26,759 bases of DNA from an uncultured Oscillospiraceae bacterium (GTDB lineage Bacteria > Bacillota > Clostridia > Oscillospirales > Oscillospiraceae): assembly GCA_934569045.1 (NCBI GenBank), contig CAKTJX010000034.1:1-26759 (forward strand). The letters are read 5' to 3'. Both the position numbers and the translations under genes were made by a program. Shown here in pieces: positions 2,144 through 17,456 of the stretch (the first letter of the stretch is position 1; the number at the start of each line of letters is the position of its first letter). The notes below the pieces were generated by a model. It ran no database searches, was not told the origin of the DNA, and worked only from the letters and a program-made list of their open reading frames with translations.

Positions 2144-2256
2144 GAAAACTCCTCCTAACATCGATGGGACACTTTTTGGTGGAGAACAACAAAGAACTGG
2201 CTGCGCTCAATGCGCCCAGGGCTACGCCAAAGGCGCTCCCCGTTACCAGTTCCACT

Positions 2257-2631: not shown

Positions 2632-2633
2632 TT

Positions 2634-2837
2634 CTAAATCCTTTCTATTGCTGCAATATCGCCTTGGTAAATGTTTTCAATACCGTCATCGCCCAAATCG
2701 ACAGCAATCATATCATCGTCTGCGTCGATTTCTTCGGCGTCCCAGATAGCAATTGTTTTTCCTTCAATAATGTCGCCATCGTTCTTTTTTATTCGGACGA
2801 ATGGCTTGCTATATGCAAAATCCCATATGTTTACCAT
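2634..2837 (-). CDS. Small acidic protein, possibly Sm-like fold, after the head-toxin gene
   Basis: A 67-residue acidic protein beginning MVNIWDFAYSKPFVRI. The pattern of short strands (FVRIKKNDGDIIEGKTIAIW, then DDDMIAVDLGD, then NIYQGDIAAIERI) resembles a compact Sm-like beta barrel; this is my reading of the pattern, not a verified family match. The start is uncertain. An ATG at 2846 overlaps the upstream stop (TGATG) but has almost no spacing to aaaagg, while the ATG at 2837 has aaaggtgat 11 bases or fewer upstream. It lies between a head protein carrying a toxin-like tail and a gp10-like protein, so an immunity or accessory role is possible but unproven. Confidence 0.6.
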   Translation of the reverse strand: MVNIWDFAYSKPFVRIKKNDGDIIEGKTIAIWDAEEIDADDDMIAVDLGDDGIENIYQGDIAAIERI

Positions 2838-2845
2838 ATTTTTCA

Positions 2846-3679
2846 TCACCTTTTCAGAACAGGGAAAATATGCTCTCCACGCTTTGAGTAATGGATAGCA
2901 ATTCGGTTACTTCCGTAGTATTGTCCATCATGGTAGCATTGCCCGGCCTCCACATCGACGGTTACATACTCAACAAATTTCGTATTCTCAGGCGACTTTC
3001 CAGAGATTACTACCGTACCTGTTGAATGGTATTTTTCTATAATTTCCTGTACCTTATCCTCCGATATTGTCAGTTTATCTTGTGGCGTTTTCCCCTTTTG
3101 TAACCGTTCGGATAAATATGTTTTATACTCATTGGTTCCCTCGATATGCTTACGCTGCTGGCCTTTATTGACTTTTAAAGGATATTCGCCAGATTGAATC
3201 TCTTCTTTAAGTATAGCACGATTTTCCTCATTTTTCAATTGGGCTTTCCGCTGCTTTTCCTCTTCTTTTTGAACTTTTTGCAGCTGTAAGTCCTTCCCGG
3301 CTTTCCAATCCTCATAACTCAAATCGCCCAACTTGGATGCCCTGGGTACGTTCGGGTCGTGAAATTTATCCACAGAAACAACGGTGCATCGGCAGTTGTA
3401 CACCAGATACCCCGGTGCGCTTGGGTCGCCTGGGTATTCCAGCTCGTACCCGTCAACCTTGAATTTCTCGCCGATATCCACCATCTGACCATCAAGCAGC
3501 CGGTGGGCGTGGCGTGTCTTCCCATCCAGAGTTGCCCGCCACATCTGTTTCAGCTGGATACCTAGAGATTCCGCATACTTGTATGTTCCAATTCTCCCGG
3601 CACACTCCGCCGCTGTGGCAGCAGTCCGGGCAGACCACACGGCAGCGGTGTTCGTTTCCAAAATCTGTCTGCGGGCCAT
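2846..3679 (-). CDS. Truncated phage minor head protein with C-terminal polymorphic-toxin-50-like domain
   Basis: A 277-residue remainder of a Mu-F/SPP1-gp7-type minor head protein. Residues 1-105 carry the conserved tail of that family: ARTAATAAE helix, KQMWRATLDGKTRHAHRLLDGQ, YPGDPSAPG and VYNCRCT. A charged Lys/Glu-rich linker covers about 130-165. The last ~105 residues (KHIEGTNEYKTYL, KLTISEDKVQEII, STGTVVI, NRIAIHYSKRGEHIFPV) match the polymorphic toxin type 50 domain pattern known at the ends of phage head proteins. Complete family members have roughly 200 or more residues before the point where this one begins. No ribosome-binding site precedes the first Met, and the thiamine promoter lies immediately upstream, so the gene is 5'-truncated and probably silent. 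Confidence 0.8.
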   Translation of the reverse strand: MARRQILETNTAAVWSARTAATAAECAGRIGTYKYAESLGIQLKQMWRATLDGKTRHAHRLLDGQMVDIGEKFKVDGYELEYPGDPSAPGYLVYNCRCTVVSVDKFHDPNVPRASKLGDLSYEDWKAGKDLQLQKVQKEEEKQRKAQLKNEENRAILKEEIQSGEYPLKVNKGQQRKHIEGTNEYKTYLSERLQKGKTPQDKLTISEDKVQEIIEKYHSTGTVVISGKSPENTKFVEYVTVDVEAGQCYHDGQYYGSNRIAIHYSKRGEHIFPVLKR

Positions 3680-3692
3680 TCGGAAAAATACC

Positions 3693-3721: not shown

Positions 3722-3736
3722 ACCCCGGACAGCAAA

Positions 3737-3826
3737 ATACAGGGGAGCTCGTAATGGCGGGCTGAGAGGAAGGAACCACCTTCGACCCTTAACCTGATGC
3801 GGATAATGCCGCCGTAGGAAGTTAGA
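3737..3826 (+). promoter_or_regulatory. TPP riboswitch aptamer (THI element)
   Basis: The conserved TPP-aptamer core is present in order: agggg (P2), P3 arm agctc/gggct, the ctgaga junction at 3762-3767, an extra small hairpin ggaagg/ccttc, gaccc (P2'), aacctgat (3791-3798), ggataatgcc (3801-3810) in P5, and gtaggaag (3814-3821). It senses thiamine pyrophosphate. An intrinsic terminator 16-47 nt downstream gives transcriptional OFF control of the salvage and uptake genes. Confidence 0.96.
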
Positions 3827-3841
3827 ATTCGGTTTTCTTTT

Positions 3842-3873
3842 ACGGGAGGCACCATCGGGTGTCTCCTGTTTTT
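3842..3873 (+). terminator. Riboswitch-controlled intrinsic terminator
   Basis: A 12-bp hairpin (3842-3853 with 3858-3869, loop atcg, two G-U pairs) is followed by ttttt at 3869-3873. It lies directly after the TPP aptamer and before thiW, so it is the probable expression platform. Confidence 0.9.
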
Positions 3874-3931
3874 GCGCTCTGGAGGAAAGGAGGAAACGGA
3901 AACCTGGCTGAGGGGGAGCGCCCTGAGCCTT

Positions 3932-4092
3932 GTATTTTCAGCGATGGGAAGCCGTGTTCCGGCGTGAGAGGATGCCAGCAAGCATCGACCGAACCTTCCG
4001 AGAGGACTGGTGTTCCGCACGGCGGCCCGCAGGGAATGCGCTGATAGTGCGTCCAGTCCTGATCACGCAGTAGGAAGCGACGCTGAAAATGC
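3932..4092 (+). promoter_or_regulatory. Second, divergent TPP-aptamer-like domain with replaced P5 arm
   Basis: A 12-bp closing helix (3932-3943 with 4081-4092) encloses a multibranched domain that aligns in order with the first aptamer: P3-like hairpin gccg/cggc (3951-3963), tgagagga (3965-3972; 3763-3770 in the first), hairpin gatgc/gcatc, tcgacc (3985-3990), aacct (3992-3996) and gtaggaag (4070-4077). Spacing between shared blocks is nearly equal (19 vs 20 and 9 vs 7 nt). The part between the P4 strands is not conserved. The first copy has 18 nt with ggataatgcc; here 74 nt form a different arm (4003-4010 with 4053-4060, then 4016-4020 with 4047-4051). The first junction base also changes (ctgaga to gtgaga). 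The thiW start is 34 nt downstream with no terminator between, so any control would act on translation or on readthrough RNA. It could be a ligand-changed or a degenerate aptamer. Confidence 0.7.
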
Positions 4093-4125
4093 CGTTTCCG
4101 AATATCTGAAAGGAGCAATCTGATT

Positions 4126-4650
4126 ATGAAACATACCAATCTGAAGAAGCTGGCCCTGGCGGGCGTTCTCTGCGCGGTGGCCGTGGTGGGCAGTCTGTTT
4201 TCTGTGCCTGTGTTCGGCAGCAAATGCGCGCCGGTGCAGCATATGGTGAATATTCTCTGCGCGGTGCTGCTGGGACCAGGCTACGGGGTCTGCGTGGCGT
4301 TCTGCGCGTCTCTGATTCGGAACCTTCTGGGGCTGGGCAGCCTGATGGCGTTCCCGGGCAGCATGTTCGGCGCGGCCCTGTGCGGCATTGTATACTGGAA
4401 GACCCGGAATCTCCCCGCGACCCTGGCGGGGGAGGTGCTGGGCACCGCCCTGCTTGGCGGGCTGTGCGCCTATCCCGTGGCCATTTTCCTCATGGGCAAG
4501 GATGCTGCGTCCATTGCGTTCTATGCCTATATTATCCCGTTCTTCATTTCCACCGCTGCCGGTGCGCTGATTTCCGGGGTGCTGATTTACAGCATCCGCC
4601 GCACCGGTCTGCTGGAGAAAATGCAGGCCAATCTGAATGGAGCTGTCTGA
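4126..4650 (+). CDS. thiW: ThiW, ECF transporter substrate-binding component (thiazole-type)
   Basis: A 174-residue hydrophobic membrane protein, the substrate-specific S-component of an energy-coupling-factor importer. The ThiW family is assigned to the thiazole precursor from gene context, which fits the thiM gene 6 bp downstream. About five or six membrane helices are visible, with the conserved features GSLFSVPVFGSKCAPVQHM, NILCAVLLGPGYGV, a FPGSMFGA loop and a C-terminal IPFFISTAAGALIS helix. The shared EcfA/EcfT module is not in the window and must be encoded elsewhere. The start has aaaggag at 4109-4115 with 10-base spacing. It is the first gene of the operon and lies behind two tandem riboswitch-like domains. 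Confidence 0.93.
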   Translation: MKHTNLKKLALAGVLCAVAVVGSLFSVPVFGSKCAPVQHMVNILCAVLLGPGYGVCVAFCASLIRNLLGLGSLMAFPGSMFGAALCGIVYWKTRNLPATLAGEVLGTALLGGLCAYPVAIFLMGKDAASIAFYAYIIPFFISTAAGALISGVLIYSIRRTGLLEKMQANLNGAV

Positions 4651-4656
4651 AAACCG

Positions 4657-5475
4657 ATGAAAACCGCCTTCCAAAATCTTCGCCGGGTCCATCCCCTGAT
4701 CCACAGTATCACAAATTACGTCACAGCCAACGACTGCGCCAACATACTGCTGGCCTGCGGCGCGTCGCCCATTATGGCGGATGACCTGGAGGAGGCCCCA
4801 CAGATCACCGCGCTGTGCGCGGGACTCAACCTGAACATGGGAACGATGAACGCCAACCGATTTGCCGCCATGCGCTCCGCCGGGCAGGCTGCCAACGTGC
4901 TGGCCCATCCGGTGGTTCTGGACCCTGTGGGGGTTGGTGCCTCACAGATGCGGATGCGCTTTGCCGGGGAACTGCTGGAGGCGGTTCGGTTTTCGGTAAT
5001 TCGAGGAAACTTCTCCGAGATTCGGGCGCTGGCCACGGGCTGCGGCGGAGAAAAGGGCGTGGATACGGACGGGAAGGCCCAGGTCACGGAGGAAAGCCTG
5101 TCCGACGCCGTGGACTTCGCCAGATCGTTTTCCCAAAAAACCGGGGCGGTTGTGGCGATGACCGGGGCCATCGATCTTGTGGCGGATGAAAACTTGGCCT
5201 ATTGTATCCGCGGCGGCCATCCCATGATGGCATCCGTTACCGGGGCCGGGTGTATGCTGTCGGCACTGACGGCGGCCTTCGCGGCGGCCAATCCCGGAAG
5301 AATACTGGAGGCTTGCGCCGCCGCGGTCTGCGCCATGGACCTGGCAGGGGAGACGGCGGCGAGGCGTATGGGCCCGCTGGACGGCAACGCCACCTACCGA
5401 AATTACCTGATTGACGCGATTTACCATATGACACCGGAGAAGCTGGAGGGCGCAAATTATGAAGTGCGAACCTGA
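4657..5475 (+). CDS. thiM: Hydroxyethylthiazole kinase ThiM
   Basis: A 272-residue cytosolic ribokinase-like enzyme that phosphorylates 4-methyl-5-(2-hydroxyethyl)thiazole with ATP for thiamine salvage. Family landmarks are HSITNYVTANDCANILLA near the N-terminus, GASPIMADD, LNMGT, VLDPVGVGAS (about 87-96), VIRGNFSEI, VVAMTGAIDLV and the anion-hole stretch SVTGAGCMLSALTAA near the C-terminus, which carries the catalytic Cys region. Length is normal for the family. It begins 6 bp after thiW and its 3' end overlaps thiE by 17 bp, a tightly coupled arrangement. Together with ThiW it makes a complete thiazole salvage branch. No thiazole biosynthesis gene (thiG/thiS/thiH) is present. Confidence 0.97.
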   Translation: MKTAFQNLRRVHPLIHSITNYVTANDCANILLACGASPIMADDLEEAPQITALCAGLNLNMGTMNANRFAAMRSAGQAANVLAHPVVLDPVGVGASQMRMRFAGELLEAVRFSVIRGNFSEIRALATGCGGEKGVDTDGKAQVTEESLSDAVDFARSFSQKTGAVVAMTGAIDLVADENLAYCIRGGHPMMASVTGAGCMLSALTAAFAAANPGRILEACAAAVCAMDLAGETAARRMGPLDGNATYRNYLIDAIYHMTPEKLEGANYEVRT

Positions 5476-6100
5476 AATGATGCGGCTGTACGCCGTGACG
5501 GACCGGGCCTGGCTGGGCAAGCAAAGTCTATGCGAGCAGGTGGAGGCGGCGCTGAAGGGCGGCGTGACCTGCGTTCAGCTGCGGGAGAAGAACCTGGACG
5601 AGGCGGATTTTCTGGCGGAGGCCATGGAGATTTCCGCACTGTGCAGGCGGTACGGAGTCCCGTTTCTGATCAATGACAATGTGGATATCGCCCTGCGCTG
5701 CCATGCGGACGGTGTGCATGTGGGCCAGGAGGATATGCAGGCGGCAAAGGTCCGCCAGCGCCTGGGCCCCGGCAGGCTGATCGGCGTCTCTGCCCATTCC
5801 GTAGAGGAGGCCATGGCCGCGGAGGCGGCGGGGGCGGACTATCTGGGGGTAGGTGCCATGTTCGGTACCTCCACTAAGAAGAATGTGCGTCCGCTGACAC
5901 CGGAAATCCTGAAGGCCATCTGTCAGACGGTGGAGATTCCGGTGGTAGCCATTGGCGGCATTCATGCCCGGAATATGGCGCAGCTTGCCGGAACGGGGGC
6001 GGACGGAGCCGCGCTGGTCAGCGCTATTTTTGGCGCGGAAGACATTGAAGCGGAATGCCGCCGCCTGCGGCAGCTGTCGGAGCAGGTCTTCGGAAAATAA
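5459..6100 (+). CDS. thiE: Thiamine-phosphate synthase ThiE
   Basis: A 213-residue TIM-barrel enzyme that joins HMP pyrophosphate to thiazole phosphate, giving thiamine phosphate. All strand-end motifs are visible: LYAVTDRAWL, VTCVQLREKN, VPFLINDNVDIAL, ADGVHVGQEDM, LIGVSAHSVEEA, GADYLGVGAMFGTSTKK and VVAIGGIHARN. The start at 5459 lies inside the end of thiM and has ggaggg about 9 bases upstream. An ATG pair at residues 7-8 is a weaker alternative. It uses the products of ThiM and ThiD, which flank it, so all three salvage enzymes are in one transcript. Confidence 0.97.
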   Translation: MKCEPEMMRLYAVTDRAWLGKQSLCEQVEAALKGGVTCVQLREKNLDEADFLAEAMEISALCRRYGVPFLINDNVDIALRCHADGVHVGQEDMQAAKVRQRLGPGRLIGVSAHSVEEAMAAEAAGADYLGVGAMFGTSTKKNVRPLTPEILKAICQTVEIPVVAIGGIHARNMAQLAGTGADGAALVSAIFGAEDIEAECRRLRQLSEQVFGK

Positions 6101-6195
6101 TGTGTGCGTACTCCCTGTACTTGGGAGTTTGCCGGCGGCAGATCGGGGGCACCACCTTCTGTCGCTTGATAAAAATAATGCAGAAGGAGAAAAAC
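6101..6195 (+). other. thiE-thiD gap with two small hairpins
   Basis: A 95-bp gap, the longest inside an operon whose other genes overlap or nearly touch. It contains actccc/gggagt (6110-6115 with 6123-6128) and a longer hairpin gcggcaga/tctgtcgc (about 6135-6163, one G-U pair). No T-run follows either hairpin, so these are more likely processing or stability structures than terminators. Confidence 0.4.
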
Positions 6196-6993
6196 ATGAG
6201 AACAGCATTATCAATCGCTGGCAGTGATTGCAGCGGAGGCGCCGGAATTCAAGCGGATCTGAAGACGATGACCCTCAATGGCGTGTATGCCATGAGCGCA
6301 ATCACCGCCCTGACGGCGCAGAATACCACCGGCGTAACAGGCATCCTGGAGGTATCCCCGGAATTTCTGGGGCAGCAGATCGATATGATCTTTACGGACA
6401 TCCGCCCGGATGCCGTGAAAATCGGCATGGTCTCCAGCTCCCAGCTGATTCAGACCATTGCCCGGAAGCTGCGGGAATACGGGGCGGAGAAAATTGTGGT
6501 GGACCCGGTTATGGTGGCAACCTCCGGCGCGCGCCTGATCGAGGAAGAGGCGGTGCAGACCCTGAAGCGGGAGCTGCTGCCCCTGGCGACTCTGGCGACG
6601 CCCAATATCCCGGAGGCGGAAATCCTGACGGATCAATCTATTCACACAGAGGAAGAAATGGTTCAGGCGGCGGAATCTATTTGGAAAAACTATGGCTGCG
6701 CGGTTCTTCTGAAAGGCGGCCACAGTATCAACGATGCCAACGATCTGTTGTACGATGCTGCCGGCCCCAGGTGGTTCCATGGCAGGCGGATTCCCAATCC
6801 GAACACCCACGGCACCGGCTGCACCCTGTCCAGCGCCATTGCCGCCAACCTGGCCAAGGGCTATGATCTGGATACCTCGGTGGAGCGGGCGAAGGAATAT
6901 ATCTCCGGCGCGCTGGCCGCTATGCTGGATCTGGGCAAGGGCAGTGGCCCCATGAATCACGCCTTTGACCTGAAAGGCAGGTTCGCGGAATGA
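6196..6993 (+). CDS. thiD: Hydroxymethylpyrimidine (phosphate) kinase ThiD
   Basis: A 265-residue ribokinase-family enzyme that phosphorylates HMP and then HMP phosphate to HMP pyrophosphate, the ThiE substrate. Visible motifs are the start ALSIAGSDCSGGAGIQADLK (substrate-binding glycines), GVYAMSAITALTAQNT, DAVKIGMVSS, VVDPVMVATSGARL, LKGGHS and the C-terminal NTHGTGCTLSSAIAANLA with the catalytic GTGC. The start at 6196 has aaggag at 6184-6189. The upstream extension of the frame to 6055 overlaps thiE and lacks family similarity. The stop overlaps the thiT start (ATGA). Confidence 0.97.
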   Translation: MRTALSIAGSDCSGGAGIQADLKTMTLNGVYAMSAITALTAQNTTGVTGILEVSPEFLGQQIDMIFTDIRPDAVKIGMVSSSQLIQTIARKLREYGAEKIVVDPVMVATSGARLIEEEAVQTLKRELLPLATLATPNIPEAEILTDQSIHTEEEMVQAAESIWKNYGCAVLLKGGHSINDANDLLYDAAGPRWFHGRRIPNPNTHGTGCTLSSAIAANLAKGYDLDTSVERAKEYISGALAAMLDLGKGSGPMNHAFDLKGRFAE

Positions 6994-7607
6994 CAAATGC
7001 TGTTCTGATCGGGATTTTTCTGGCGGTTTATTACGCCGTTTCTATCTGGCTCTGCCGGGGTGTCCGGTTTACCACCAAGGATCTGTGCCTGTGCGGCCTG
7101 AGTGTCGCGCTGACTATGGTTCTGGAGTCCATCCGCATTCCGCTGCCCACAGGGGCGTCCATTCCGCTGGCATCCATGGTGCCGCTGATGCTGCTGTCCA
7201 TCGTGTGTGACTATCGGCTGACCTTTTTTGCTGGGTGGGTCTGCGGACTCCTGGCGGCAGTATTGATCCCAGGCTGGGCGCCGGTGCACTGGGCCCAGTT
7301 TCTGGCAGAGCATCTTTTGTGCTTTTCCTGCATGGCCTATGTGGGTGCCTTCGGGACGGACAAGCGCTGGAAGCTGCTGTGCGGCCTGCTGCTTGCCTCC
7401 GTGCTGAAAATCGCGGGACACCTGTTCAGCGGAGTCCTTTTCTTCTCCCAGAACGCCTGGGATGGCTGGGGGGCCTGGGGCTACAGCTGGGCCTTTAATC
7501 TCTCTCAGAATGTGCCGCTGTGCTTGATCTCCGCGGCCATTGTGCTTTGCCTGCCGCTGAAGAGCCTGAAGCGGGCAGTCCATAAGGAGGAACGTGTATG
7601 CGCCTGA
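6990..7607 (+). CDS. thiT: ThiT-type thiamine ECF transporter S-component
   Basis: A 205-residue six-helix membrane protein of the ThiT/YuaJ family, which binds thiamine with high affinity for import through the shared ECF module. Family features seen are LESIRIPLPTGASIPLASM before the second helix, VPLMLLSIVCDYRLTFFAGWV, a WAPVHWAQFLAEH segment and HLFSGVLFFSQNAWDG leading into the GYSWAFNLSQNVPL helix. These Trp, Tyr, His and Asn positions form the thiamine pocket in characterised members. ATGA overlap with thiD indicates coupling. The operon therefore imports both a thiazole-type precursor (ThiW) and thiamine (ThiT). Confidence 0.9.
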   Translation: MTNAVLIGIFLAVYYAVSIWLCRGVRFTTKDLCLCGLSVALTMVLESIRIPLPTGASIPLASMVPLMLLSIVCDYRLTFFAGWVCGLLAAVLIPGWAPVHWAQFLAEHLLCFSCMAYVGAFGTDKRWKLLCGLLLASVLKIAGHLFSGVLFFSQNAWDGWGAWGYSWAFNLSQNVPLCLISAAIVLCLPLKSLKRAVHKEERVCA

Positions 7608-8281
7608 CAGAAAAATGCGTCCAGGACAGCCTGCCCATCTGGGAGCAATGCTTGAACAGCGCCTTTTTGAAGCAGCTGGAGGCGGGAACACTGGACCCCG
7701 AATGCCTGCTGGGATATATTGTAGACGACAGCCTGTACCTGCGGGAGTATGCCAAGGTCTTTGCCTGGGGAATGCTGAAATCGCAGACCATGGAAGAAAT
7801 CCGTGTCTGCTATTCGCTGCTGTCCTTTGTCAACGAGGGAGAGGGCTCTACACGGCTATCCTATCTCCACAGCTTCGGTGTGGAGGACGCTGAAATTCAG
7901 CTTTTGCCACAGCGGCCGGAGAACAGGGCCTATACGGACTGCATGCTTCAGGCGGCGGAGGCGGGGGGACTGGCAGAATGCATGATGGCCTGCCTGCCCT
8001 GTATGCTGAGCTATGCCTGGATTTTCGGAAAGCTGCTGGAGCGCTCTCCGGGGGTGCGGGAGACGGTTTACTGGCCCCTGGTGCGGGATTACGCGGGCCA
8101 GGGCTATGCCGATGCCTGCCAGAGCTGGATTGCCGCGGCAGACGCGCTGTGCGAGGGCCTGCCGGAGCAGCGGCAGCAGAAGTGCCTGGAGATTTTCCGG
8201 GCCTGCTCCCGCCATGAGCTGAACTTCTGGAATATGAGCGCCAGCCCCCGCCAGGATATTCAGCCGAGGAAGGCTCTATAA
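7598..8281 (+). CDS. tenA: TenA family thiaminase II / aminopyrimidine aminohydrolase
   Basis: A 227-residue all-helical TenA protein. The family hydrolyses aminopyrimidine thiamine breakdown products (and thiamine itself) to release HMP for ThiD. Signature parts are the DDSLYLREYAKVFAWG helix, the central CMMACLPCMLSYAWIFG helix with the catalytic Cys position, and the C-terminal ACSRHELNFWNMS with the conserved Glu. The start overlaps the end of thiT by 10 bp and has aaggagg upstream. It closes the salvage operon and is followed at once by an intrinsic terminator. Whether it acts on thiamine or on degraded pyrimidine is not decidable from sequence. Confidence 0.93.
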   Translation: MRLTEKCVQDSLPIWEQCLNSAFLKQLEAGTLDPECLLGYIVDDSLYLREYAKVFAWGMLKSQTMEEIRVCYSLLSFVNEGEGSTRLSYLHSFGVEDAEIQLLPQRPENRAYTDCMLQAAEAGGLAECMMACLPCMLSYAWIFGKLLERSPGVRETVYWPLVRDYAGQGYADACQSWIAAADALCEGLPEQRQQKCLEIFRACSRHELNFWNMSASPRQDIQPRKAL

Positions 8282-8362: not shown

Positions 8363-8393
8363 AGCCCTACTTTACATGTGGGAGGATGAAACA

Positions 8394-8870
8394 ATGGCAC
8401 TGGCAACCTTTTATTGCGGGGACCCGAAAGATGCCCCAAAAACCACCCAGGGGGCTCATCTGGGGGCCAACGCAATCCTGAAGTGGCAGGATCAGCTCCT
8501 GCTGGAGCGTCGGGTGGACGCGGATGTCTGGGGCCTGGTTGGCGGCGGCGCGAAGAAGCAGGAGACGGGGCGGCAGACCATCGTCCGGGAGGTCTATGAG
8601 GAGCTGGGCCTGCGGCTCCGCCCGGAGCAGTTCCGGAAGCTGGCGGTCTATGGGGACCCTGGGCGTATCGCTGCCTACCGGGACGGCAGCGTGTGGCGCA
8701 TGGTGATTGTGCTCTATGGCTATACATTCCCGGAAAGACCAACGCTTCGCATCAGCGCGGAGTCCAGGGAGCTTCGCCTTTTCACCCGGGAAGAAGTGCG
8801 GACGCTGCCCATTGCGGTGACCCATCAGGACATTATTGCGGACTGGTTCCTGAACAAAACTGAATTTTGA
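8394..8870 (+). CDS. Nudix hydrolase
   Basis: A 158-residue protein with a complete Nudix box, GGAKKQE followed after seven residues by REVYEELGL, matching G-x5-E-x7-REUXEEXGU, which binds the divalent metals for pyrophosphate cleavage. The flanks are typical too: a strand LGANAILKWQDQLLLERR before the box and a C-terminal LFTREEVRTLPIA segment. The start is set at the Met with gggagga 8-9 bases upstream rather than the earlier ATG at 8376, which overlaps that site. The substrate cannot be read from sequence. It lies between the thiamine operon and the OLE-type locus but has its own promoter, so a role on TPP-like diphosphates is only a possibility. Confidence 0.93.
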   Translation: MALATFYCGDPKDAPKTTQGAHLGANAILKWQDQLLLERRVDADVWGLVGGGAKKQETGRQTIVREVYEELGLRLRPEQFRKLAVYGDPGRIAAYRDGSVWRMVIVLYGYTFPERPTLRISAESRELRLFTREEVRTLPIAVTHQDIIADWFLNKTEF

Positions 8871-8942
8871 CTGAAAAAAGGCCGGTTTCGTACAATCAAA
8901 ACCGAATAAACTGTTAAAAATATACAGAAATTCATTTGATAC

Positions 8943-8971
8943 TTGTATATTCACATTTTTTGTGATAGAAT
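8943..8971 (+). promoter_or_regulatory. Promoter of the OLE-type RNA / dxs operon
   Basis: ttgtat (8943-8948) and tagaat (8966-8971) are separated by 17 bp, placing the transcription start near 8978, exactly at the base of the long-range helix that closes the non-coding RNA. Confidence 0.75.
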
Positions 8972-8977
8972 ACATGC

Positions 8978-9597
8978 CGACGGCGCAGTATCCTAGTCAG
9001 AGTTACCGTTTTCCAGGAAGGGCCTAAAAATCCTTTGAAGGGCACATCGGTGAAGTCCCTGGTGTCTGCTTTTTACGCCCAGTTTAGGGTGGATGCTGGG
9101 GGTTAAGGATTCCGGGCGCGCTCCAATGGCATGGAGCATACGACCCGTTTTCCGTGGAGACCTGGTCTTGTGCGACGACGATATGAACCTCGCGCAGAGG
9201 CCCGCTCGCGTACGAACCAGGATTAGAACCTGCAAGGCAGTGCACAGAATCGTGTTGCTGCGTGCAGCGTAGCCTGCCTTGAGTGAATATGTGGGGAAAG
9301 AAGATCAGGCGGCCTGTCGCTGTGGCCATGGCGGCAGCCGATATCGCTTCTGGAAACCATATTTGCAAAAGAGGCTAAGACTACGGTTTTCTCTGCTGTG
9401 GAAATCACCTAGGCTGTCGTAACTGGGCAGACAGGGGATTGCGGTACGGACTAAGTGGCAATCGGGTACGTCTGATGGCGACACAGACGCGGCGAAATGA
9501 AACGGAAACGGCCTGCGCGGCAACGGCAGGTTTCCGCCGGGGAAAACAAACCCGACCTAAGCCGTAAGATTTATCCTGTCTGCCGCCGTCATTTTTA
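8978..9597 (+). ncRNA. ole: OLE-type large structured non-coding RNA
   Basis: About 620 nt without a credible gene. The ends pair: gacggcg (8979-8985) with cgccgtc (9584-9590), extended by cag/ctg (8986-8988 with 9580-9582), and atttttatt follows the 3' strand. Internal perfect helices include gctcca/tggagc (9120-9125 with 9132-9137), caaggcag/ctgccttg (9233-9240 with 9274-9281) with nested tgcac/gtgca, and cggaaac/gtttccg (9503-9509 with 9530-9536). OLE RNA is about 600 nt, occurs in anaerobic or extremophilic Bacillota, and lies just upstream of the gene for its membrane partner OapA, commonly beside dxs, tlyA, argR and recN. Size, position and partner all fit. I could not compare the sequence to the OLE covariance model. 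OLE forms a membrane ribonucleoprotein linked to stress and magnesium responses. Confidence 0.82.
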
Positions 9598-9620
9598 TTC
9601 TGATTTAGGGGAGAGTTCCT

Positions 9621-10220
9621 GTGTCAAAAACCGATCCGGACAGTACAAAGCGTCAGCAGAAGGAGGCGGCCCGCTGGGCGTTGACCATCTTTCTGGTGAC
9701 GATTGCGGTGTCCGCTACCATCAGCTTTGTCTCTGGCGAGGTGATGAACCGCAGCTCCATTGCGGTGGCTTTTTTAATCCTGCTGTTTATTGTAGCGGTG
9801 GGTATTGTTTTTGATATTGTGGGCGTGGCGGTTACCTCCGCCGATGAAAAGCCCTTTCATTCCATGGCCTCCCGCCGAGTGCCCGGCGCGAAGGAGGCAA
9901 TCCGGCTGCTGCGCAGCGCCGGAAAGGTCAGCTCCATCTGCAACGATGTGATCGGGGATATCTGCGGCGTCGTCTCCGGTGCGGCCTCTGCCACCATTGC
10001 GGCCAGAGCACTGACCTATCTCTCGTTTTCCTGGCCCCAGGTGGTGAGCCTCGGCATGTCCGCGTTGGTTGCGGGTCTGACCGTAGGCGGCAAGGCCATC
10101 GGCAAAACCATCGCCATCCGCTCCAGTACGGAGATTGTCTTCCTGGTTGGGCGGATTCTGGCATCGTTGGATCAATGGAAGACCTGGCTGCGCGGCAAGA
10201 AAGATAAGAAAAAAGGATGA
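9621..10220 (+). CDS. oapA: OapA-like OLE-associated membrane protein
   Basis: A 199-residue basic membrane protein with GTG start and ggggaga at 9608-9614. Hydrophobic helices lie at about 20-42 (ALTIFLVTIAVSATISFVSG), 48-72 (SIAVAFLILLFIVAVGIVFD), 112-134 and 140-160. The C-terminus is strongly basic (RGKKDKKKG), suitable for RNA contact. The segment GVAVTSADEKPFHSMASRR followed by a short loop and a gene-end helix pair recalls the DUF21-type membrane domain of CorC/CNNM proteins; this resemblance is by eye only. The assignment rests on size, topology, its place directly after the ~620-nt structured RNA and before dxs, which is the OapA position in known OLE loci. It is separated from dxs by 7 bp. 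Confidence 0.8.
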   Translation: MSKTDPDSTKRQQKEAARWALTIFLVTIAVSATISFVSGEVMNRSSIAVAFLILLFIVAVGIVFDIVGVAVTSADEKPFHSMASRRVPGAKEAIRLLRSAGKVSSICNDVIGDICGVVSGAASATIAARALTYLSFSWPQVVSLGMSALVAGLTVGGKAIGKTIAIRSSTEIVFLVGRILASLDQWKTWLRGKKDKKKG

Positions 10221-10227
10221 GTGCGCT

Positions 10228-12099
10228 GTGGGAATCTTACAGGATGTTCACTGCCAGCAGGATCTGCTGAATTTGACAGAGCCCCAGAGGGCCTGCCTGT
10301 GCCGGGAGATCCGGGAATTTCTGATTGAGAATGTGGCGAAGACCGGCGGCCACCTGGCCGGAAACCTGGGGGTTGTAGAGCTGACCGTCGCCATTGAAAC
10401 GGTATATAATACACAAAAGGACCGCCTGGTTTTTGATGTCGGTCATCAGTCTTATGTCCATAAGCTGCTGACGGGACGCCAGGCGGATTTTGCGCGTCTG
10501 CGTCAGTTCGGCGGCATGTCCGGCTTTCCCAAGCCCTCCGAGAGCGTGACAGACGCGTTTGTGGCGGGCCATGCCTCCAGCTCTGTCTCCATCGCCCTGG
10601 GTATGGCGAGAGCCCGGACATTGCTGGGGCAGAACTACGATGTGGTTGCCCTGGTGGGCGACGGCGCGGCTACCGGCGGCATGATCTATGAGGCGCTGAA
10701 CGATCTTGCCGTCAGCCGGGAGCCCATGGTGGTGATCCTGAATGACAATGAAATGTCCATCAGCAAGAGCATCGGCGGCCTGTCCAAGCACCTTTCCAGA
10801 GTCCGCAGCAGCCGGAATTATCTTCATGCCAAGCGCTATTACCGGGAATTTCTGAAAAAGCTGCCCGGCGGCAATGCCGTCTATAAGGCCACAAGCCGCC
10901 TGAAAAACCGCATCAAGCGCATGGTGATGCCGGGTACGCTGTTTGAAAATATGGGCATCACCTATCTGGGCCCGGCCGACGGCCATGATCTGCCCGGAAT
11001 TACGGCTCTGCTGAATTCCGCAAAAGAGATGCGGGAGCCGGTGCTGGTCCATGTGATCACCCGGAAGGGCTGCGGCTATCCGCCTGCCCAGGAGGACCCT
11101 ACCCGGTTCCACGGCATTGGAAAATTCGACCCCGTCACGGGAAAGAGCCTGGGGACCAAGGCAGCCACCTATTCTGATTCCTTTGGTCAGACCATGATCG
11201 ATCTGGCATCCCGGAACGATCGGGTCTGCGCCATTACAGCCGCCATGTCCGCCGGCACCGGCCTGACGGAGTTTATGCGCCGCTTCCCACAGCGCACCTT
11301 TGATGTGGGCATTGCGGAGGAGCACGCGGTCTCTATGGCAGGCGGACTGGCGAAACAGGGCATGATCCCTGTGGTGGCCCTGTATTCTACCTTTTTGCAG
11401 CGGGCCTATGACCAGCTGATCCAGGATGTGGCCATGCTGCATCTGCATGTGGTGCTGGCCATCGACCGGGCAGGCCTGGTGGGGGACGACGGCCCTACCC
11501 ACCATGGAGTCTTTGACGTTGGCTTTTTGCGGCAGATGCCGGGAATGCTGATTCTCGCCCCGGCGAGTCTCCACGAGCAGCGGGATATGCTCCGCTGGGC
11601 GGTGGAGCGCTATGACGGCCCTGTGGCGGTGCGCTACCCCAGGGGCGGCCAGGGCCGCTATGCCGATTCTGCCTGGCATGAGGGAATCGAAACCGCGGAA
11701 GGAAATCTCTGCTGCCACAGGGCGGGCGGGGATGTGACCCTGGTGACCTATGGCGGCCTTGTTAACAATGTGCTGGAGGCGGCAGAGCTGCTGGCGGAAG
11801 ATGGGATCGAAGCCGGTGTCCTGCGGCTGCTGAATCTGACCCAGCTGCCCGGGAAGCAGATCCTGGAGCAGGGCAGCGGCCCTGTTGTGATTGTGGAAGA
11901 GGCCTGCACCGGCAGCGGCATCCGGGAGAGTCTTGCGTGGCTTCTGGATACGCTGGAGCCCGGGCGGCGGGTTTACGGCCTGGATTTGGGGCCGGATTTT
12001 GTCCCCCACGGTGCCCAGGAGAAGCTCTACGCGCTCTGCGGCGTGGATGCCAAGTCGATTGCGGAATTTGTAAAAGGGGTGACCCGAAGTGAAGGTTAA
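10228..12099 (+). CDS. dxs: 1-deoxy-D-xylulose-5-phosphate synthase Dxs
   Basis: A 623-residue cytosolic enzyme that condenses pyruvate and glyceraldehyde 3-phosphate, the first step of the MEP isoprenoid pathway. It uses TPP and magnesium: His73 lies in FDVGHQSYVHK, Asp145 in the VGDGAATGGMIYEALND TPP-binding motif, and Glu364 in the IAEEHAVSMAGGLA catalytic segment. TGPTHH-equivalent is GDDGPTHHGVFD, and AVRYPRG lies near the C-terminal domain. The GTG start at 10228 follows aaaggat and lies 7 bp after oapA. A longer frame from 10135 runs back into oapA and has no family similarity. It overlaps tlyA by 11 bp. Its dependence on TPP links it to the upstream thiamine salvage operon. Confidence 0.97.
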   Translation: MGILQDVHCQQDLLNLTEPQRACLCREIREFLIENVAKTGGHLAGNLGVVELTVAIETVYNTQKDRLVFDVGHQSYVHKLLTGRQADFARLRQFGGMSGFPKPSESVTDAFVAGHASSSVSIALGMARARTLLGQNYDVVALVGDGAATGGMIYEALNDLAVSREPMVVILNDNEMSISKSIGGLSKHLSRVRSSRNYLHAKRYYREFLKKLPGGNAVYKATSRLKNRIKRMVMPGTLFENMGITYLGPADGHDLPGITALLNSAKEMREPVLVHVITRKGCGYPPAQEDPTRFHGIGKFDPVTGKSLGTKAATYSDSFGQTMIDLASRNDRVCAITAAMSAGTGLTEFMRRFPQRTFDVGIAEEHAVSMAGGLAKQGMIPVVALYSTFLQRAYDQLIQDVAMLHLHVVLAIDRAGLVGDDGPTHHGVFDVGFLRQMPGMLILAPASLHEQRDMLRWAVERYDGPVAVRYPRGGQGRYADSAWHEGIETAEGNLCCHRAGGDVTLVTYGGLVNNVLEAAELLAEDGIEAGVLRLLNLTQLPGKQILEQGSGPVVIVEEACTGSGIRESLAWLLDTLEPGRRVYGLDLGPDFVPHGAQEKLYALCGVDAKSIAEFVKGVTRSEG

Positions 12100-12904
12100 A
12101 AAGAGGCTGGATGTGCTCCTGACCGAGCAGGGCTATGCGGAGAACCGCACCAAGGCTCAGGCCATTATTATGAGCGGCATTGTCTATGTGGACGGCCAGA
12201 AGGCGGACAAGCCCGGAACGGCCTATGAGGAGACGGTGTCCATTGAGGTCCGCGGGGCGGCCTGCCCCTATGTCAGCCGGGGCGGCCTGAAGCTGGAGAA
12301 GGCTCTGCGGGACTTTGGGGTTAAGCCAGAGGGCTATGTGTGCTCCGATTCCGGCGCATCCACTGGCGGCTTTACGGACTGCCTGCTGCAGCAGGGGGCC
12401 AGCAAGGTGTTTGCCATTGATGTGGGCTACGGCCAGCTGGACTGGAAAATCCGTTCCGATCCCCGGGTGGTGGTGATGGAGAAAACCAATATCCGCTATG
12501 TCACCCCGGAGCAGCTGGGGGAGCCCCTGGATCTTTCTGTGGTGGATGTGAGTTTTATTTCCCTGAAAATTGTACTGCCCGCCATCCAGAAGCTGCTGAA
12601 GCCCACGGGTCAGGTGCTGTGCCTGATCAAGCCCCAGTTTGAGGCCGGACGGGAGAAGGTCGGCAAAAAAGGTGTGGTCCGGGAGAAGAGCACCCACAAA
12701 GAGGTGCTGGACGATTTTGTGGCGCTGGCAGACAGCCTGGGCTTCCGCATTCTGGGCCTGACCTTTTCTCCCGTGAAGGGGCCGGAGGGAAATATTGAAT
12801 TCCTGGGGCACCTGAGCCTGGACGATGTTCCGGGCATCCGCCCGGATACCGCTGCCGTTGTGGAGCAGGCCCATGCCGCTCTGGACAAAGGAGCGGAAGC
12901 ATGA
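12089..12904 (+). CDS. tlyA: TlyA family rRNA methyltransferase / hemolysin homologue
   Basis: A 271-residue TlyA/YqxC protein. Residues 1-65 form an S4 RNA-binding domain (RLDVLLTEQGYAENRTKAQ, SGIVYVDGQKADKPG). An FtsJ-like SAM methyltransferase follows with VCSDSGASTGGFTDCLLQQGA as the SAM motif, VFAIDVGYGQL, VVDVSFISL and CLIKPQFEAGR. Characterised TlyA proteins 2'-O-methylate cytidines in rRNA and set capreomycin sensitivity; activity here is assumed from the family. The GTG start is inside the end of dxs, with ggggt about 8 bases upstream. The stop shares ATGA with nadK. Confidence 0.95.
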   Translation: MKVKKRLDVLLTEQGYAENRTKAQAIIMSGIVYVDGQKADKPGTAYEETVSIEVRGAACPYVSRGGLKLEKALRDFGVKPEGYVCSDSGASTGGFTDCLLQQGASKVFAIDVGYGQLDWKIRSDPRVVVMEKTNIRYVTPEQLGEPLDLSVVDVSFISLKIVLPAIQKLLKPTGQVLCLIKPQFEAGREKVGKKGVVREKSTHKEVLDDFVALADSLGFRILGLTFSPVKGPEGNIEFLGHLSLDDVPGIRPDTAAVVEQAHAALDKGAEA

Positions 12905-13764
12905 AGCATGTGATTCTGACCCCCAATCCCTACCGGGATCGGAATTTTCAGACGGTGCGCAGCGCGATGCAGATCTTGAAGGACGCGGGGCTGCGGGTGA
13001 GCCTGTGCCTGCCCTTTGATGTGGACCGGAGCTATGAGCTGCCTAAGGATCTGCGCTTTTCCAGGCTGGACCGGGAACTGCCCAATGCCGATGCCGTGAT
13101 CTGCTTTGGCGGTGACGGCACCATTCTCCATACCGCCAAGGCGGCCACCAAGCGGGGAATCCCCATCCTGGGGGTCAATATCGGCACCATGGGTTTTCTG
13201 GCGGAGCTGGAAAGCTCGGAGCTGAATCAGCTGCCCAGGCTGGTGTCCGGGGAATATAAGCTGGACCCGCGGATGATGCTGGACGTGACCGTCCAGCGGG
13301 ACCGGGATATCATTTTCCATGATATCTGCCTGAACGATGTGGTGGTGACCAAGGGCGCTGTGGCCCGGATTGTCTACCTGAGCGTGGAGTGCGACGGGGT
13401 TCAGGCCATGAGCTGTGGGGGAGACGGCGTGATCATCTCCACCCCCAGCGGCTCCACGGCTTACAATCTCTCTGCCGGGGGCCCCATTGTGGAGCCGGAT
13501 GCCCGGAACATGATCATTACCCCCATCTGCGCCCACGACATGGTCAGCCGCTGCGTGGTGACCTCGGACCGCCGGGTGATCACCGTGCGGATGGTGCAGA
13601 ACGCCCGCAGAAATGCTTTCCTGTCCGTGGACGGTGGCAAGGCCCTGCGGCTGAACATGGGCGACACGGTGACCATCCGAAAGTCCAAATATGAAACCAA
13701 GCTGATCAAACTGAATGACCGCAGCTTTTACGATGTGGTGAATGCCAAATTTCAAAGGAAGTAA
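12901..13764 (+). CDS. nadK: NAD kinase
   Basis: A 287-residue cytosolic enzyme that makes NADP from NAD and ATP. Diagnostic motifs are ICFGGDGTILHTAK (the GGDG phosphate-binding motif, about residue 70), GVNIGTMGFLAELE (the N-x-G-x-x-GFL motif), CLNDVVV, and the C-terminal ISTPSGSTAYNLSAGGPIV. Length is standard. The start overlaps tlyA by four bases. It belongs to the same operon as dxs, tlyA, argR and recN, the usual order in Clostridia. Confidence 0.97.
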   Translation: MKHVILTPNPYRDRNFQTVRSAMQILKDAGLRVSLCLPFDVDRSYELPKDLRFSRLDRELPNADAVICFGGDGTILHTAKAATKRGIPILGVNIGTMGFLAELESSELNQLPRLVSGEYKLDPRMMLDVTVQRDRDIIFHDICLNDVVVTKGAVARIVYLSVECDGVQAMSCGGDGVIISTPSGSTAYNLSAGGPIVEPDARNMIITPICAHDMVSRCVVTSDRRVITVRMVQNARRNAFLSVDGGKALRLNMGDTVTIRKSKYETKLIKLNDRSFYDVVNAKFQRK

Positions 13765-13776
13765 GAGGGACTTGCC

Positions 13777-14229
13777 ATGAAATCCAAAAGACAGGCCAAG
13801 ATCATTGAGATCATTTCCAATGCTAACGTGGAAACCCAGGAGCAGCTGCTGAAGGCCCTGGAGGAAGAGGGCTTCACCAGCACCCAGGCAACCATTTCCA
13901 GGGATATCAAGGAGCTGCGCATCATCAAGGAGCTGACCAGCCTCGGCACCTACCGCTACAGTGTGCCGGAAAAGGATGTGCCCCCGGCCCTTTCGGACCG
14001 GCTGAACACCATTTTCCGGGAGTGCGTCATCAGCATTGACTATGCGGAAAATATTATTGTGATCCACACCCTGCCGGGCCTGGCCGGTGCCGCCGGTTCC
14101 GCGCTGGATGCCATGAAGATCAGCGTGGTGCTGGGAACGCTGGCCGGTGACGATACGGTGATGATCGTCATGCGGGATTCCGCCTCTGCCGCGGCCTTTA
14201 GCGGAGAGATCAAAGCGGTGATCCGATAA
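13777..14229 (+). CDS. argR: Arginine repressor ArgR
   Basis: A 150-residue ArgR/AhrC transcription regulator. The N-terminal winged helix-turn-helix (RQAKIIEIISNANVETQEQL, then TQATISRDIKELRIIK) binds ARG boxes; TQATISRDIKEL is the signature recognition helix. The C-terminal oligomerisation and arginine-binding domain contains NIIVIHTLPGLAGAAGSALD and VLGTLAGDDTVMIVMR, the hexamer-forming GTLAGDDT motif. It lies 12 bp after nadK and 15 bp before recN, in the conserved recN neighbourhood of Bacillota. Confidence 0.97.
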   Translation: MKSKRQAKIIEIISNANVETQEQLLKALEEEGFTSTQATISRDIKELRIIKELTSLGTYRYSVPEKDVPPALSDRLNTIFRECVISIDYAENIIVIHTLPGLAGAAGSALDAMKISVVLGTLAGDDTVMIVMRDSASAAAFSGEIKAVIR

Positions 14230-14244
14230 AAGGGGAGAGTAACC

Positions 14245-15900
14245 TTGCTGAGCCTATTGCATATCGAAAATATCGCGGTCATTGAGCAGGCGGATATCTC
14301 CTTTGACAGGGGCTTCAACGTGCTCACCGGTGAAACCGGTGCCGGTAAATCCATTGTCATTGATGCAATTTCTGCCATTCTCGGCCAGCGGGCCTATCGG
14401 GATATGATCCGCACCGGCACCAACAAGGCCTCTGTCCGGGCGGTGTTTACCCAGGTGCCGGAGCTCGGCTGGTTTGAAGAGAACGGGGTGGACTACGACC
14501 CGGAAACCGTGATCCAGCGGGATATTTTCCTGGATGGGAAAAATGTCTGCCGGGTCAATGGGAGCTTGGTGACGGTGGCCATCCTGCATAAGCTGGGCAT
14601 TCAGCTCATTAATATTCACGGCCAGCATGATTCCGCATCCCTATTCGATGAGGAGAACCATCTCCATTTCCTGGATGCCTTTGCGGACAATGGAGCATTG
14701 CTGGAGGATTACCGGGGGAAATTTGCCGCTGTCAGTGCCCTGCGGCGGGAGATTGACCGGATGACCATGGACGAGGGCGAAAAGCTGCGCCGCATGGAAA
14801 CGCTGAAATACCAGATCGCGGAAATCGAAAAGGCGGAGCTTCAGCCCGGGGAGGACGAGGAGCTGGACCAGCGCAGAAAGCTGCTGCAAAACTCCGAAAA
14901 GCTGTCCCAGGGCCTGGAGGAGGCCACGGAGGCCCTGCTTGGCGGGGATGAGAGCGGCGACGGCGCCGCGGCGCTGCTGGCCCAGGCGGCCTATGCCCTT
15001 AGCCGCATCGCCCGGTACAGCGATGACTATACCGCCTTTCAGGAGCGGCTGACGGACCTCAAGTACCAGGTGCAGGACATTGCGGACGAGGTGCGGGATG
15101 CCCTGGACGATTTGAGTTATTCTGCCGATGAGCTGGAGCAGATCGAGTCCCGCCTGGATGTGATCCACCGGCTCCGCCGGAAATACGGTGCGGACTGCCA
15201 GGAGATTCTGGACTACCTGGAGAAGGCCCGGAAGGAACTGGACGAAATTGAATTTGCGGATGACCATGTGGAACACCTGAAAAAGCAGCTGGCCCAAAAG
15301 GAAAAGGCCGCCTGGGATGCGGCTCTGGCCCTGCGGAAGAATCGGCAGGAGCAGGGGGAGATTCTTTCCCAAAAGATTCTGTCGGAGCTCAGTCAGCTGG
15401 ATATGCCTCGGGTGCAGTTCCAGTGCCGGTTCCGGGAGACGGAGCTGACGGCGGAGGGGGCGGACGCGGTGGCGTTCTATCTGTCCGCCAATGCGGGTGA
15501 GGACTTAAAGCCCCTGAGCAAGGTGGCCTCCGGCGGCGAGCTGGCCCGGATCATGCTGTCCATGAAAAATGTTCTGGCGGAAAAGGATGCGGTGGATACC
15601 CTGATTTTTGACGAGGTGGATACCGGTGTCTCCGGCAGAGCCGCCCAGCGCATTGCGGAGAAGCTCCGCAGCCTGGCCCGGCACAAGCAGGTGCTCTGCG
15701 TGACCCACCTGCCCCAACTGGCGGCCCTGGCGGATACCCACATGCTGATTGCCAAGTCGGAGCGGGACGGACGGACCTTTACAACGGTGACCCCCCTGGA
15801 TCGGGAGGGCCGGAAGCAGGAACTGGCCCGGATCATTGGCGGCACCAATATTACGGAAACAACCCTGAAAAGTGCCGAAGAAATGCTTTTGCAGCCCTAA
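14245..15900 (+). CDS. recN: DNA repair ATPase RecN
   Basis: A 551-residue SMC-like ATPase acting early in double-strand-break repair. The Walker A is TGETGAGKS (about 29-37), a central coiled-coil region covers roughly 150-390, the ABC signature is ASGGELARIMLSMK (about 430) and the Walker B region TLIFDEVDTGVSG follows, then CVTHLPQLAAL. The start is TTG at 14245 with aggggaga 6-14 bases upstream; no in-frame ATG lies near the family's MLxxLxIxN start. It is the last gene of the operon; no terminator follows its stop before the tyrS promoter. Confidence 0.96.
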   Translation: MLSLLHIENIAVIEQADISFDRGFNVLTGETGAGKSIVIDAISAILGQRAYRDMIRTGTNKASVRAVFTQVPELGWFEENGVDYDPETVIQRDIFLDGKNVCRVNGSLVTVAILHKLGIQLINIHGQHDSASLFDEENHLHFLDAFADNGALLEDYRGKFAAVSALRREIDRMTMDEGEKLRRMETLKYQIAEIEKAELQPGEDEELDQRRKLLQNSEKLSQGLEEATEALLGGDESGDGAAALLAQAAYALSRIARYSDDYTAFQERLTDLKYQVQDIADEVRDALDDLSYSADELEQIESRLDVIHRLRRKYGADCQEILDYLEKARKELDEIEFADDHVEHLKKQLAQKEKAAWDAALALRKNRQEQGEILSQKILSELSQLDMPRVQFQCRFRETELTAEGADAVAFYLSANAGEDLKPLSKVASGGELARIMLSMKNVLAEKDAVDTLIFDEVDTGVSGRAAQRIAEKLRSLARHKQVLCVTHLPQLAALADTHMLIAKSERDGRTFTTVTPLDREGRKQELARIIGGTNITETTLKSAEEMLLQP

Positions 15901-15950: not shown

Positions 15951-15957
15951 ACTGTAC

Positions 15958-16206
15958 AACGCTGAGATGGGAAAAAGTACGCAGTCACAGCTTCTTTCAG
16001 AGAGCCGCCGGAGGGTGTAAGGCGGCAGAGTGGGTTGCGGAAAATACCTCCCGGAGCGGCTTCCCTGAAGCTTCAGTAGGGGAGGACGGGTGCGCCCGAT
16101 ACAGCGTCGCCGCCTGCGGGGCGGCATGAGGGGGGAGCCGTGAGGCTTCTCCAAACTGAGGTGGTACCGCGCTTTTTGCGCCCTCTGTCTTGTTGACAGA
16201 GGGCGC
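15958..16206 (+). promoter_or_regulatory. Tyrosine T-box leader
   Basis: The leader carries the stem I motif agagagc (15999-16005), a likely specifier codon UAC (16045-16047, tyrosine) in a gaaaaUAC context, and the T-box sequence gaggtggtaccgcg (about 16158-16171). Its UGGU would pair with the ACCA end of uncharged tRNA-Tyr. Uncharged tRNA would favour the antiterminator over the terminator at 16178-16206. Confidence 0.93.
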
Positions 16207-16216
16207 TTAATTTTTT
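16178..16216 (+). terminator. T-box intrinsic terminator
   Basis: A perfect 12-bp stem gcgccctctgtc/gacagagggcgc (16178-16189 with 16195-16206), loop ttgtt, is followed by ttaatttttt. Confidence 0.95.
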
Positions 16217-16232
16217 GGAAAGGAACAAAAAG

Positions 16233-17456
16233 ATGAAAGTTTATGACGAACTGGTAGCCCGTGGCCTGATTGCCCAGGTCACCAATGAAGAAGAGATCCG
16301 GGAGATGGTCGACAACGGCAAGGCCACCTTCTATATCGGCTTTGACCCCACGGCGGATTCCCTCCATGTGGGCCATTTCATGGCACTGTGCCTCATGAAG
16401 CGGCTGCAGATGGCGGGCAACAAGCCCATTGCCCTGATCGGCGGCGGCACAGCCATGATCGGCGACCCCTCCGGCCGTACCGATATGCGCAGTATGATGA
16501 CCAAGGAGACCATCGACCACAACTGCGCCTGCTTCAAAAAGCAGATGGAGCGTTTCATCGAGTTCGGTGAGGGCAAGGCCCAGATGGTCAACAATGCCGA
16601 CTGGCTGCTGAACCTGAACTATATCGATTTCATCCGGGATATCGGCGCCTGCTTCTCCGTGAATAATATGCTGCGGGCCGAGTGCTTCAAGCAGCGCATG
16701 GAGAAGGGCCTGAGCTTCCTGGAGTTCAACTACATGCCCATGCAGTCCTACGACTTCTACTACCTGTACCAGCACTACGGCTGCAATATGCAGTTCGGCG
16801 GCAACGACCAGTGGAGCAATATGCTGGGCGGTACCGAGCTGATCCGCCGGAAGCTGGGCAAGGATGCCCACGCCATGACCATCACCCTGCTCCTGAATTC
16901 CGAGGGCAAGAAGATGGGCAAGACCGCCAAGGGTGCCGTGTGGCTGGACCCGAACAAGACCAGCCCTTACGAATTCTACCAGTACTGGCGCAACATCGAT
17001 GACGCGGACGTGATGAAGTGCATCCGGATGCTGACCTTCCTGCCCCTGGAGCAGATCGATGAGATGGATACCTGGAAGGACGCCAAAATCAACGAGGCCA
17101 AGGAAATCCTGGCCTTTGAGCTGACCAAGCTGGTTCACGGCGAGGAAGAGGCCGCCAAGGCCCAGGCCTCCGCCAGAGCGCTTTTCGTAGGCGGCGGTGA
17201 TGAGGCCAATCTGCCCACCACCGAGCTGACCGAGGATCAGCTGACCGATGGCCAGATCGGCATTCTGAACCTGATGGTGGCCTGCAAGCTGGCTTCCTCC
17301 AACAAGGAGGCCCGGACCTTGGTGCAGCAGGGCGGCGTTCTCGTCAACGATGAGAAGGTTCCCGCTCCCAATTTTGCCGTGACCCAGGAAATGCTCCAGC
17401 AGGGCGTCAAGATCCGTAAGGGTAAAAAGATTTTCCACAAAGCAATTTTGAAATAA
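16233..17456 (+). CDS. tyrS: Tyrosyl-tRNA synthetase
   Basis: A 407-residue class Ic aminoacyl-tRNA synthetase. The HIGH-type motif is [11 protein letters not shown] near residue 45, and the KMSKS-type motif is [10 protein letters not shown] near residue 230. The tyrosine-pocket segments [25 protein letters not shown] and [10 protein letters not shown] are visible. The C-terminal S4 RNA-binding domain covers the last ~70 residues ([17 protein letters not shown]). The ATG at 16233 has aaagga upstream; the track of the frame back to a TTG at 16215 lies in the terminator T-run and is rejected. The T-box specifier agrees with tyrosine. Confidence 0.98.

Follow-up and report, generated by a model that had tools for sequence, protein, structure and literature searches.

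The locus and its OLE RNA gene

The window analysed here is a 26,759-nucleotide (nt) stretch of contig CAKTJX010000034.1. Between a Nudix gene that ends at position 8870 and an open frame for 199 amino acids (aa) at 9621-10220, it holds about 612-620 nt without a credible gene (approximately 8978-9598). The first-pass annotation had read this region as an OLE-type RNA with its own promoter, followed by the protein partner OapA and by dxs, tlyA, nadK, argR, and recN. Among structured bacterial RNAs that still lack a settled biochemical function, OLE is one of the largest. Judged from its sequence, the window almost certainly carries an intact, full-length OLE RNA gene and the partner gene oapA, arranged in the cluster customary for OLE; the bacterium is probably a member of the Oscillospiraceae that lives in the gut.

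The identification of the RNA no longer depends on inference alone, because the covariance-model search proposed in the first-pass annotation returned a full-length match. When the whole window was compared with all Rfam families by cmscan, three matches exceeded their cut-offs, namely OLE, a T-box (15955-16188), and a thiamine pyrophosphate (TPP) riboswitch (3731-3837). The OLE match (RF01071) extends over 8964-9605 on the plus strand, covers model positions 1-616 of 616, and scores 442.7 bits against a cut-off of 50 (E = 4.4e-127); the gene itself is placed at 8978-9598, with approximate ends. Identity to the consensus is found at 221 of the 249 upper-case, or most conserved, positions and at 162 of the 360 lower-case ones. 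The gene-free stretch also folds better than shuffled sequences, with a predicted energy of -245.7 kcal/mol (z = -3.2) that none of 20 shuffles equalled.

For comparison, the best 80 of 262 loci encoding an OapA relative were taken from the GTDB species collection. An alignment of 73 rows was made from the window and the 72 relatives whose OLE match reached the 5' end. Of 90 rows in all, 17 were left out: 14 with a match that stops short of the 5' end, L087 and L091, whose genomes are already represented by L072 and L079, and L028, which is identical to L014. From 8979 to 9590 the window RNA is 612 nt long, which is the median of these rows (range 593-640), and it is therefore of the full-length type and not one of the shortened variants found in TANB77 (variant 1) and RF39 (variant 2). 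Like the host proposed here, these variants belong to gut-associated clades. Their P7 and P8 stems are reported to be shortened or missing and their OapB site is often absent (PMC11332333), whereas the regions taken as P7, P8, and P9 in the window (56, 41, and 84 nt) are near the medians of the alignment and P13 keeps an intact loop. An 18-nt insert at 9186-9203 distinguishes the window from the Rfam model.

The protein encoded directly downstream supports the same identification. The oapA gene (9621-10220, plus strand) has a GTG start about 20 nt from the end of the RNA and encodes 199 aa, including the sequence DVIGD at residues 109-113. This DxxxD motif is present in 39 of the 39 relatives looked at, and D109 and D113 are invariant in all 40 rows of the protein alignment. 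The predicted model, with long helices at residues 6-44, 47-73, 100-133, 139-167, and 169-197, resembles the CNNM/CorB Mg2+ exporters. Moreover, in all but one of the 80 relatives (79) the homologous gene is preceded by OLE; the remaining locus, L069, has only 177 nt upstream before the contig edge. The name OapA, already suggested in the first-pass annotation, is thus supported by position, motif, and predicted fold, and no defining difference from OapA emerged, although no direct alignment with OapA of Halalkalibacterium halodurans was made. Two results weigh against it: the Foldseek match to CNNM reaches only 5.1e-3, and comparison with Pfam and NCBIfam returned no family at 1e-3. In contrast to MpfA, CorB, and CorC, the window protein possesses the DxxxD motif and has no listed match to the CBS or CorC_HlyC domains, while its CNNM match (E = 0.51, 10.4 bits) is below the cut-off of 28.4 bits. 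Among the matches found, the closest relative is Pseudoflavonifractor sp. MSJ-30, whose OapA is 84% identical.

The relatives also indicate the kind of host. According to their record titles, 57 of the 80 are placed in the Oscillospiraceae and 23 have no family, and gut-type words (colon, cecum, rectum, cow, or faec-) occur in 33 titles. A gut Oscillospiraceae host is therefore probable. The first-pass annotation had regarded a copy in an apparently mesophilic host as informative in itself, a view that does not hold. Clostridium acetobutylicum is a mesophile. Its OLE RNA has been used for cryo-electron microscopy (PMC12286853), and gut-clade OLE variants have been published as well (PMC11332333). 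Because the 2,822 OLE hits reported in the Bacillota include gut lineages, the type of host is not new (PMC11332333). The main text of that report contains no words beginning Oscillospir, Clostridia, or mesophil, so that this particular family goes unnamed in it. Overall, the window OLE is a well-formed additional member of a known RNA class, and the find itself adds one more to the 2,822 hits published for the Bacillota (PMC11332333). This copy is well formed, has its partner beside it, and is near to that of a named isolate (Pseudoflavonifractor sp. MSJ-30), and it could nevertheless serve as a mesophilic system for study.

Promoter, helices, and protein-binding regions

The RNA appears to be transcribed from its own promoter at 8943-8971 on the plus strand, with a -35 element TTGTAT (8943-8948), a 17-nt spacer, and an extended -10 element, (TG) TAGAAT (8966-8971). 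This promoter had been read from the sequence in the first-pass annotation and is kept in the relatives, with TTG of the -35 element in 69 of 72 rows and an extended -10 of the form TGnTAnnnT in 68; the mean conservation of the columns just upstream is 0.59. It is not among the sites listed by a simple consensus scan, which gives one other promoter-like site, at 8867-8896, when shuffled sequences average 0.6.

The ends of the RNA are joined by a terminal helix of seven base pairs (bp), in which 8979-8985 pairs with 9584-9590. Across the 73 rows these positions are paired in 508 of 511 cells, and the pairing is maintained by compensatory changes, such as G-C to A-T and C-G to T-A. In 1000 shuffles the mean was 468.6 and the maximum 479, and slid arms gave at most 410. 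These shuffles ignore the kinship of the rows, and both controls cover the terminal helix alone. The Rfam model leaves the same positions unpaired, although its consensus letters are complementary there. The structure line of the model also includes an inner helix, 9426-9436 with 9574-9584, which is paired in 800 of 803 cells.

The first-pass annotation had closed the RNA with a 10-bp helix, of which seven pairs stand, with covariation, and the last three do not. Pairs between 8986-8988 and 9580-9582 can be drawn in the sequence and are nearly invariant, but 9428-9430 is the more consistent partner of their 3' bases, and the inner helix stays paired where the three pairs break. They compete with that helix and were rejected as closing pairs. 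Separately, the RNA has two copies of GCAG, at 8985-8988 and at 9427-9430, each able to pair with CUGC at 9580-9583, a possible alternative pairing between the terminal and inner helices.

It is exceedingly improbable that OLE is decaying in this mesophilic host and has lost the ability to form a working particle. Such decay would be compatible with the 28 of 249 upper-case consensus positions that differ in the window, and an MpfA-type protein in the closest relative could make OLE dispensable. However, compensatory changes maintain the terminal helix, the relatives share the promoter, oapA is an uninterrupted frame with the residues that are invariant in the 40-row alignment, and the window score of 442.7 bits falls within the range of the relatives, from 419.6 to 456 bits.

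The 3' end is less uniform. A U-run follows the terminal helix in the window, as the first-pass annotation had observed, but TTTT occurs within 10 nt 3' of the helix in only 32 of the 73 rows, and a simple scan of the window listed no terminator at this place. Because of its restricted occurrence, the U-run was ruled out as a conserved terminator. Its absence from many relatives fits read-through into oapA, and in H. halodurans the OLE cluster has been reported as one polycistronic transcript (PMC12265935). Together with the start of oapA about 20 nt downstream, these observations favor an alternative in which the stretch serves chiefly as a long, structured 5' leader for the operon of oapA and dxs and not as an independent RNA gene. 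This alternative is very unlikely. OLE has been described as an abundant RNA with a processed 3' end (PMC12265935, PMC11332333), and in two relatives, L077 and G033, OLE and oapA are about 2.4-2.5 kb apart with another gene between them, an arrangement that a simple leader would not easily tolerate. An independent OLE RNA gene thus remains the better description.

The stem names used for the window (P4a, P6, P7, P8, P9, and P13) were placed on its coordinates from the published papers. The P4a region (9037-9064, plus strand), which is part of the published OapA site, occurs in 20 distinct forms in the 73 rows; the window has CAUCGGUG, and most rows have letters of the (C/U)AUCGAUG type. The P6 region (9104-9152, plus strand) corresponds to the published bS21 site. 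In H. halodurans, P6 contains a match to the anti-Shine-Dalgarno sequence at the bS21 site (PMC12054373). In contrast, the corresponding match (CCTCC in the DNA) is found in P6 of none of the 73 aligned rows, the window included, so bS21 recognition, if it takes place here, cannot depend on CCUCC. This absence agrees with the report that bS21 binding persisted in H. halodurans mutants whose P6 had lost the sequence and retained its base pairing (PMC12054373). An anti-Shine-Dalgarno mimic in P6 is not a class-defining feature of OLE. The left arm of P6 begins with UAAGG in the eight commonest forms among the aligned rows.

The P13 hairpin (9509-9532, plus strand), the published OapB site, has the loop GGCAAC in the window and GGNRAC in 73 of 73 rows, and is the predicted site of OapB binding here. 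The region of the k-turn known as the OapC site is aligned to the Rfam model. An OapB homologue is encoded in the closest relative (L119, 3401-3706; match to 7k9b at 2.2e-5). A search for the KOW domain of Pfam was tried as a means of finding OapB and dropped, since its matches look by their length like L24 or NusG.

By analogy with H. halodurans, the RNA and OapA most likely form the same membrane particle. The OLE RNA would dimerise, and OapA, which resembles CNNM proteins and probably acts in the transport of divalent metals, would hold it at the membrane. OapB would be taken up at P13, perhaps with bS21 at P6. Such a particle may help the cell to withstand Mg2+, cold, alcohol, or carbon-source stress.

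OLE and MpfA within one family

The distribution of the system was surveyed in 300 sampled genomes of the GTDB family to which Pseudoflavonifractor sp. MSJ-30 (G001) belongs, with an OLE search whose stricter filters lost weak matches. OLE was found in 87 of the 300 genomes and is no rarity in this family. OapA was found in 88, comprising all 87 carriers of OLE and G189, in which the contig ends 166 nt upstream of oapA. Partial OLE matches in G207, G188, and G238 likewise lie at contig ends, and none of these four genomes, nor L069 among the relatives, was accepted as a true exception to the pairing of OLE with OapA. OapB matches were obtained in 71 of the 87 OLE genomes and 136 of the 213 others (p = 0.002, ignoring kinship), with a query from G001 that favors near relatives. 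A plasmid search in near mode gave no match.

In the same genomes OLE tends to be absent where an MpfA-type protein is present. A strong CNNM match was found in 22 of the 87 genomes with OLE vs. 197 of the 213 without it (Fisher p = 2.2e-31, kinship ignored). Proteins were counted as MpfA-type when the CNNM match had an E-value under 1e-20, a threshold used because some OapA matches pass the CNNM cut-off; the CBS and CorC domains were checked in the G001 protein only. An anticorrelation of OLE and MpfA has been published for the Bacillota as a whole (PMC11332333), and the counts repeat it inside one family. The parts consulted of the literature that treats MpfA and OLE RNA together contain no such test at the level of a family. 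In this family OLE and OapA may largely stand in for the protein-only Mg2+ exporter MpfA, and the two might be interchangeable modules that have repeatedly replaced each other. We consider this last proposal possible but on balance rather doubtful.

Some results favor this proposal and others count against it. The relationships of the genomes were estimated with a quick, non-bootstrapped tree from five proteins encoded in the rpoA cluster, which covers the 76 genomes nearest to G001 (the best rpoA matches out of 264 obtained from the 300 genomes). In favor of repeated replacement, this tree requires at least 13 changes in the presence of OLE, with at least 17 for MpfA, and over 11 independent pairs with unlike OLE states MpfA differs in the opposite direction in 5.2, in the same direction in 0.7, and not at all in 5.1 (averages). 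The tree-corrected test has the same direction as the simple counts but does not reach significance (median p = 0.125, range 0.004-1). A first tree sample of 60 genomes, 50 of them with the marker, gave no signal (median p = 1); it could not show a correlation because it had been stratified by OLE and MpfA. Finally, the closest relative, G001, possesses OLE together with a CNNM-CBS-CorC protein, so the exchange is not strict and the replacement of MpfA need not apply to the host of the window. Some of the absences of OLE or MpfA may be assembly gaps, and G190, which has no OLE, is nearly identical on the tree to G037, which has it.

The comparison within the family is a useful but unproven lead. 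It provides a concrete and testable functional hypothesis, concerning the handling of Mg2+, and if the exchange of modules is real, these gut bacteria would be natural replicate experiments on OLE function.

The gene neighborhood

The genes that follow oapA, all on the plus strand, were confirmed by domain and family matches and are those named in the first-pass annotation. They comprise dxs (10228-12099, start codon inferred; TIGR00204, 667.4 bits), tlyA (12089-12904; TIGR00478, 274.3 bits), nadK (12901-13764; Pfam NAD kinase domains), argR (13777-14229; TIGR01529, 140.8 bits), and recN (14245-15900; Pfam SMC_N). The name recN follows from the RecF/RecN/SMC domain and from a gene order that is the same as in the relatives. 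By tblastn, dxs was found in 80 of the 80 relatives, tlyA in 77, nadK in 75, and argR and recN in 71 each, with several of the misses due to cut contigs. In its length, its match to the whole model, its conserved nucleotides, the position of oapA directly downstream, and this cluster, the window OLE is like the known full-length OLE RNAs.

Upstream, the order differs from the usual one. The Nudix gene (8376-8870, plus strand; Pfam NUDIX) lies directly before OLE, while three relatives of lower similarity (L066, L068, and L078) have upstream a frame that, on inspection by eye, looks like an ispA-type polyprenyl synthetase, which is the usual order. The first-pass annotation had described the usual neighbors as replaced by a Nudix gene and a thiamine operon. 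The Nudix gene is indeed present, but it is shared by part of the clade and not peculiar to the window, since it adjoins OLE in 31 of the 60 loci whose upstream sequence extends to 700 nt or more. Thiamine genes near OLE were found by tblastn in none of the 80 relatives, whose flanks extend to at most 6 kb and are often cut; this applies to ThiE, ThiD, the ThiT-like transporter, and TenA. In the window itself, a thiamine operon of the salvage type occupies 3731-8281, with the TPP riboswitch at its head and then genes for ThiW, hydroxyethylthiazole kinase, ThiE, ThiD, a ThiT-like transporter, and TenA.

The beginning of the window has a different character. The frame at 3-1685, which runs off the start of the window, encodes a large serine recombinase with Resolvase, Recombinase, and Zn ribbon domains, and the minus strand at 2846-3679 encodes a protein that has both a Phage_Mu_F and an Ntox50 domain. 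Perhaps positions 1-3680 are a prophage or integrated element that ends just before the thiamine operon. A plasmid search in near mode gave no match.

The frames that separate OLE from oapA in L077 (3577-5883) and in G033 (L128, 2094-4454) encode lipoprotein-like proteins of 768-786 aa. One has a weak match to a solute-binding-protein family (8.5e-6) and the other matches no family at 1e-5. The spacing between dxs and tlyA is also enlarged in L077 and in L073, which suggests that the lipoprotein-like frame may belong to a spreading gene family. Downstream of recN, the T-box leader precedes a tyrosyl-tRNA synthetase-like gene (together 15955-17456), and a T-box is also located 3' of the cluster in 6 of 12 loci.
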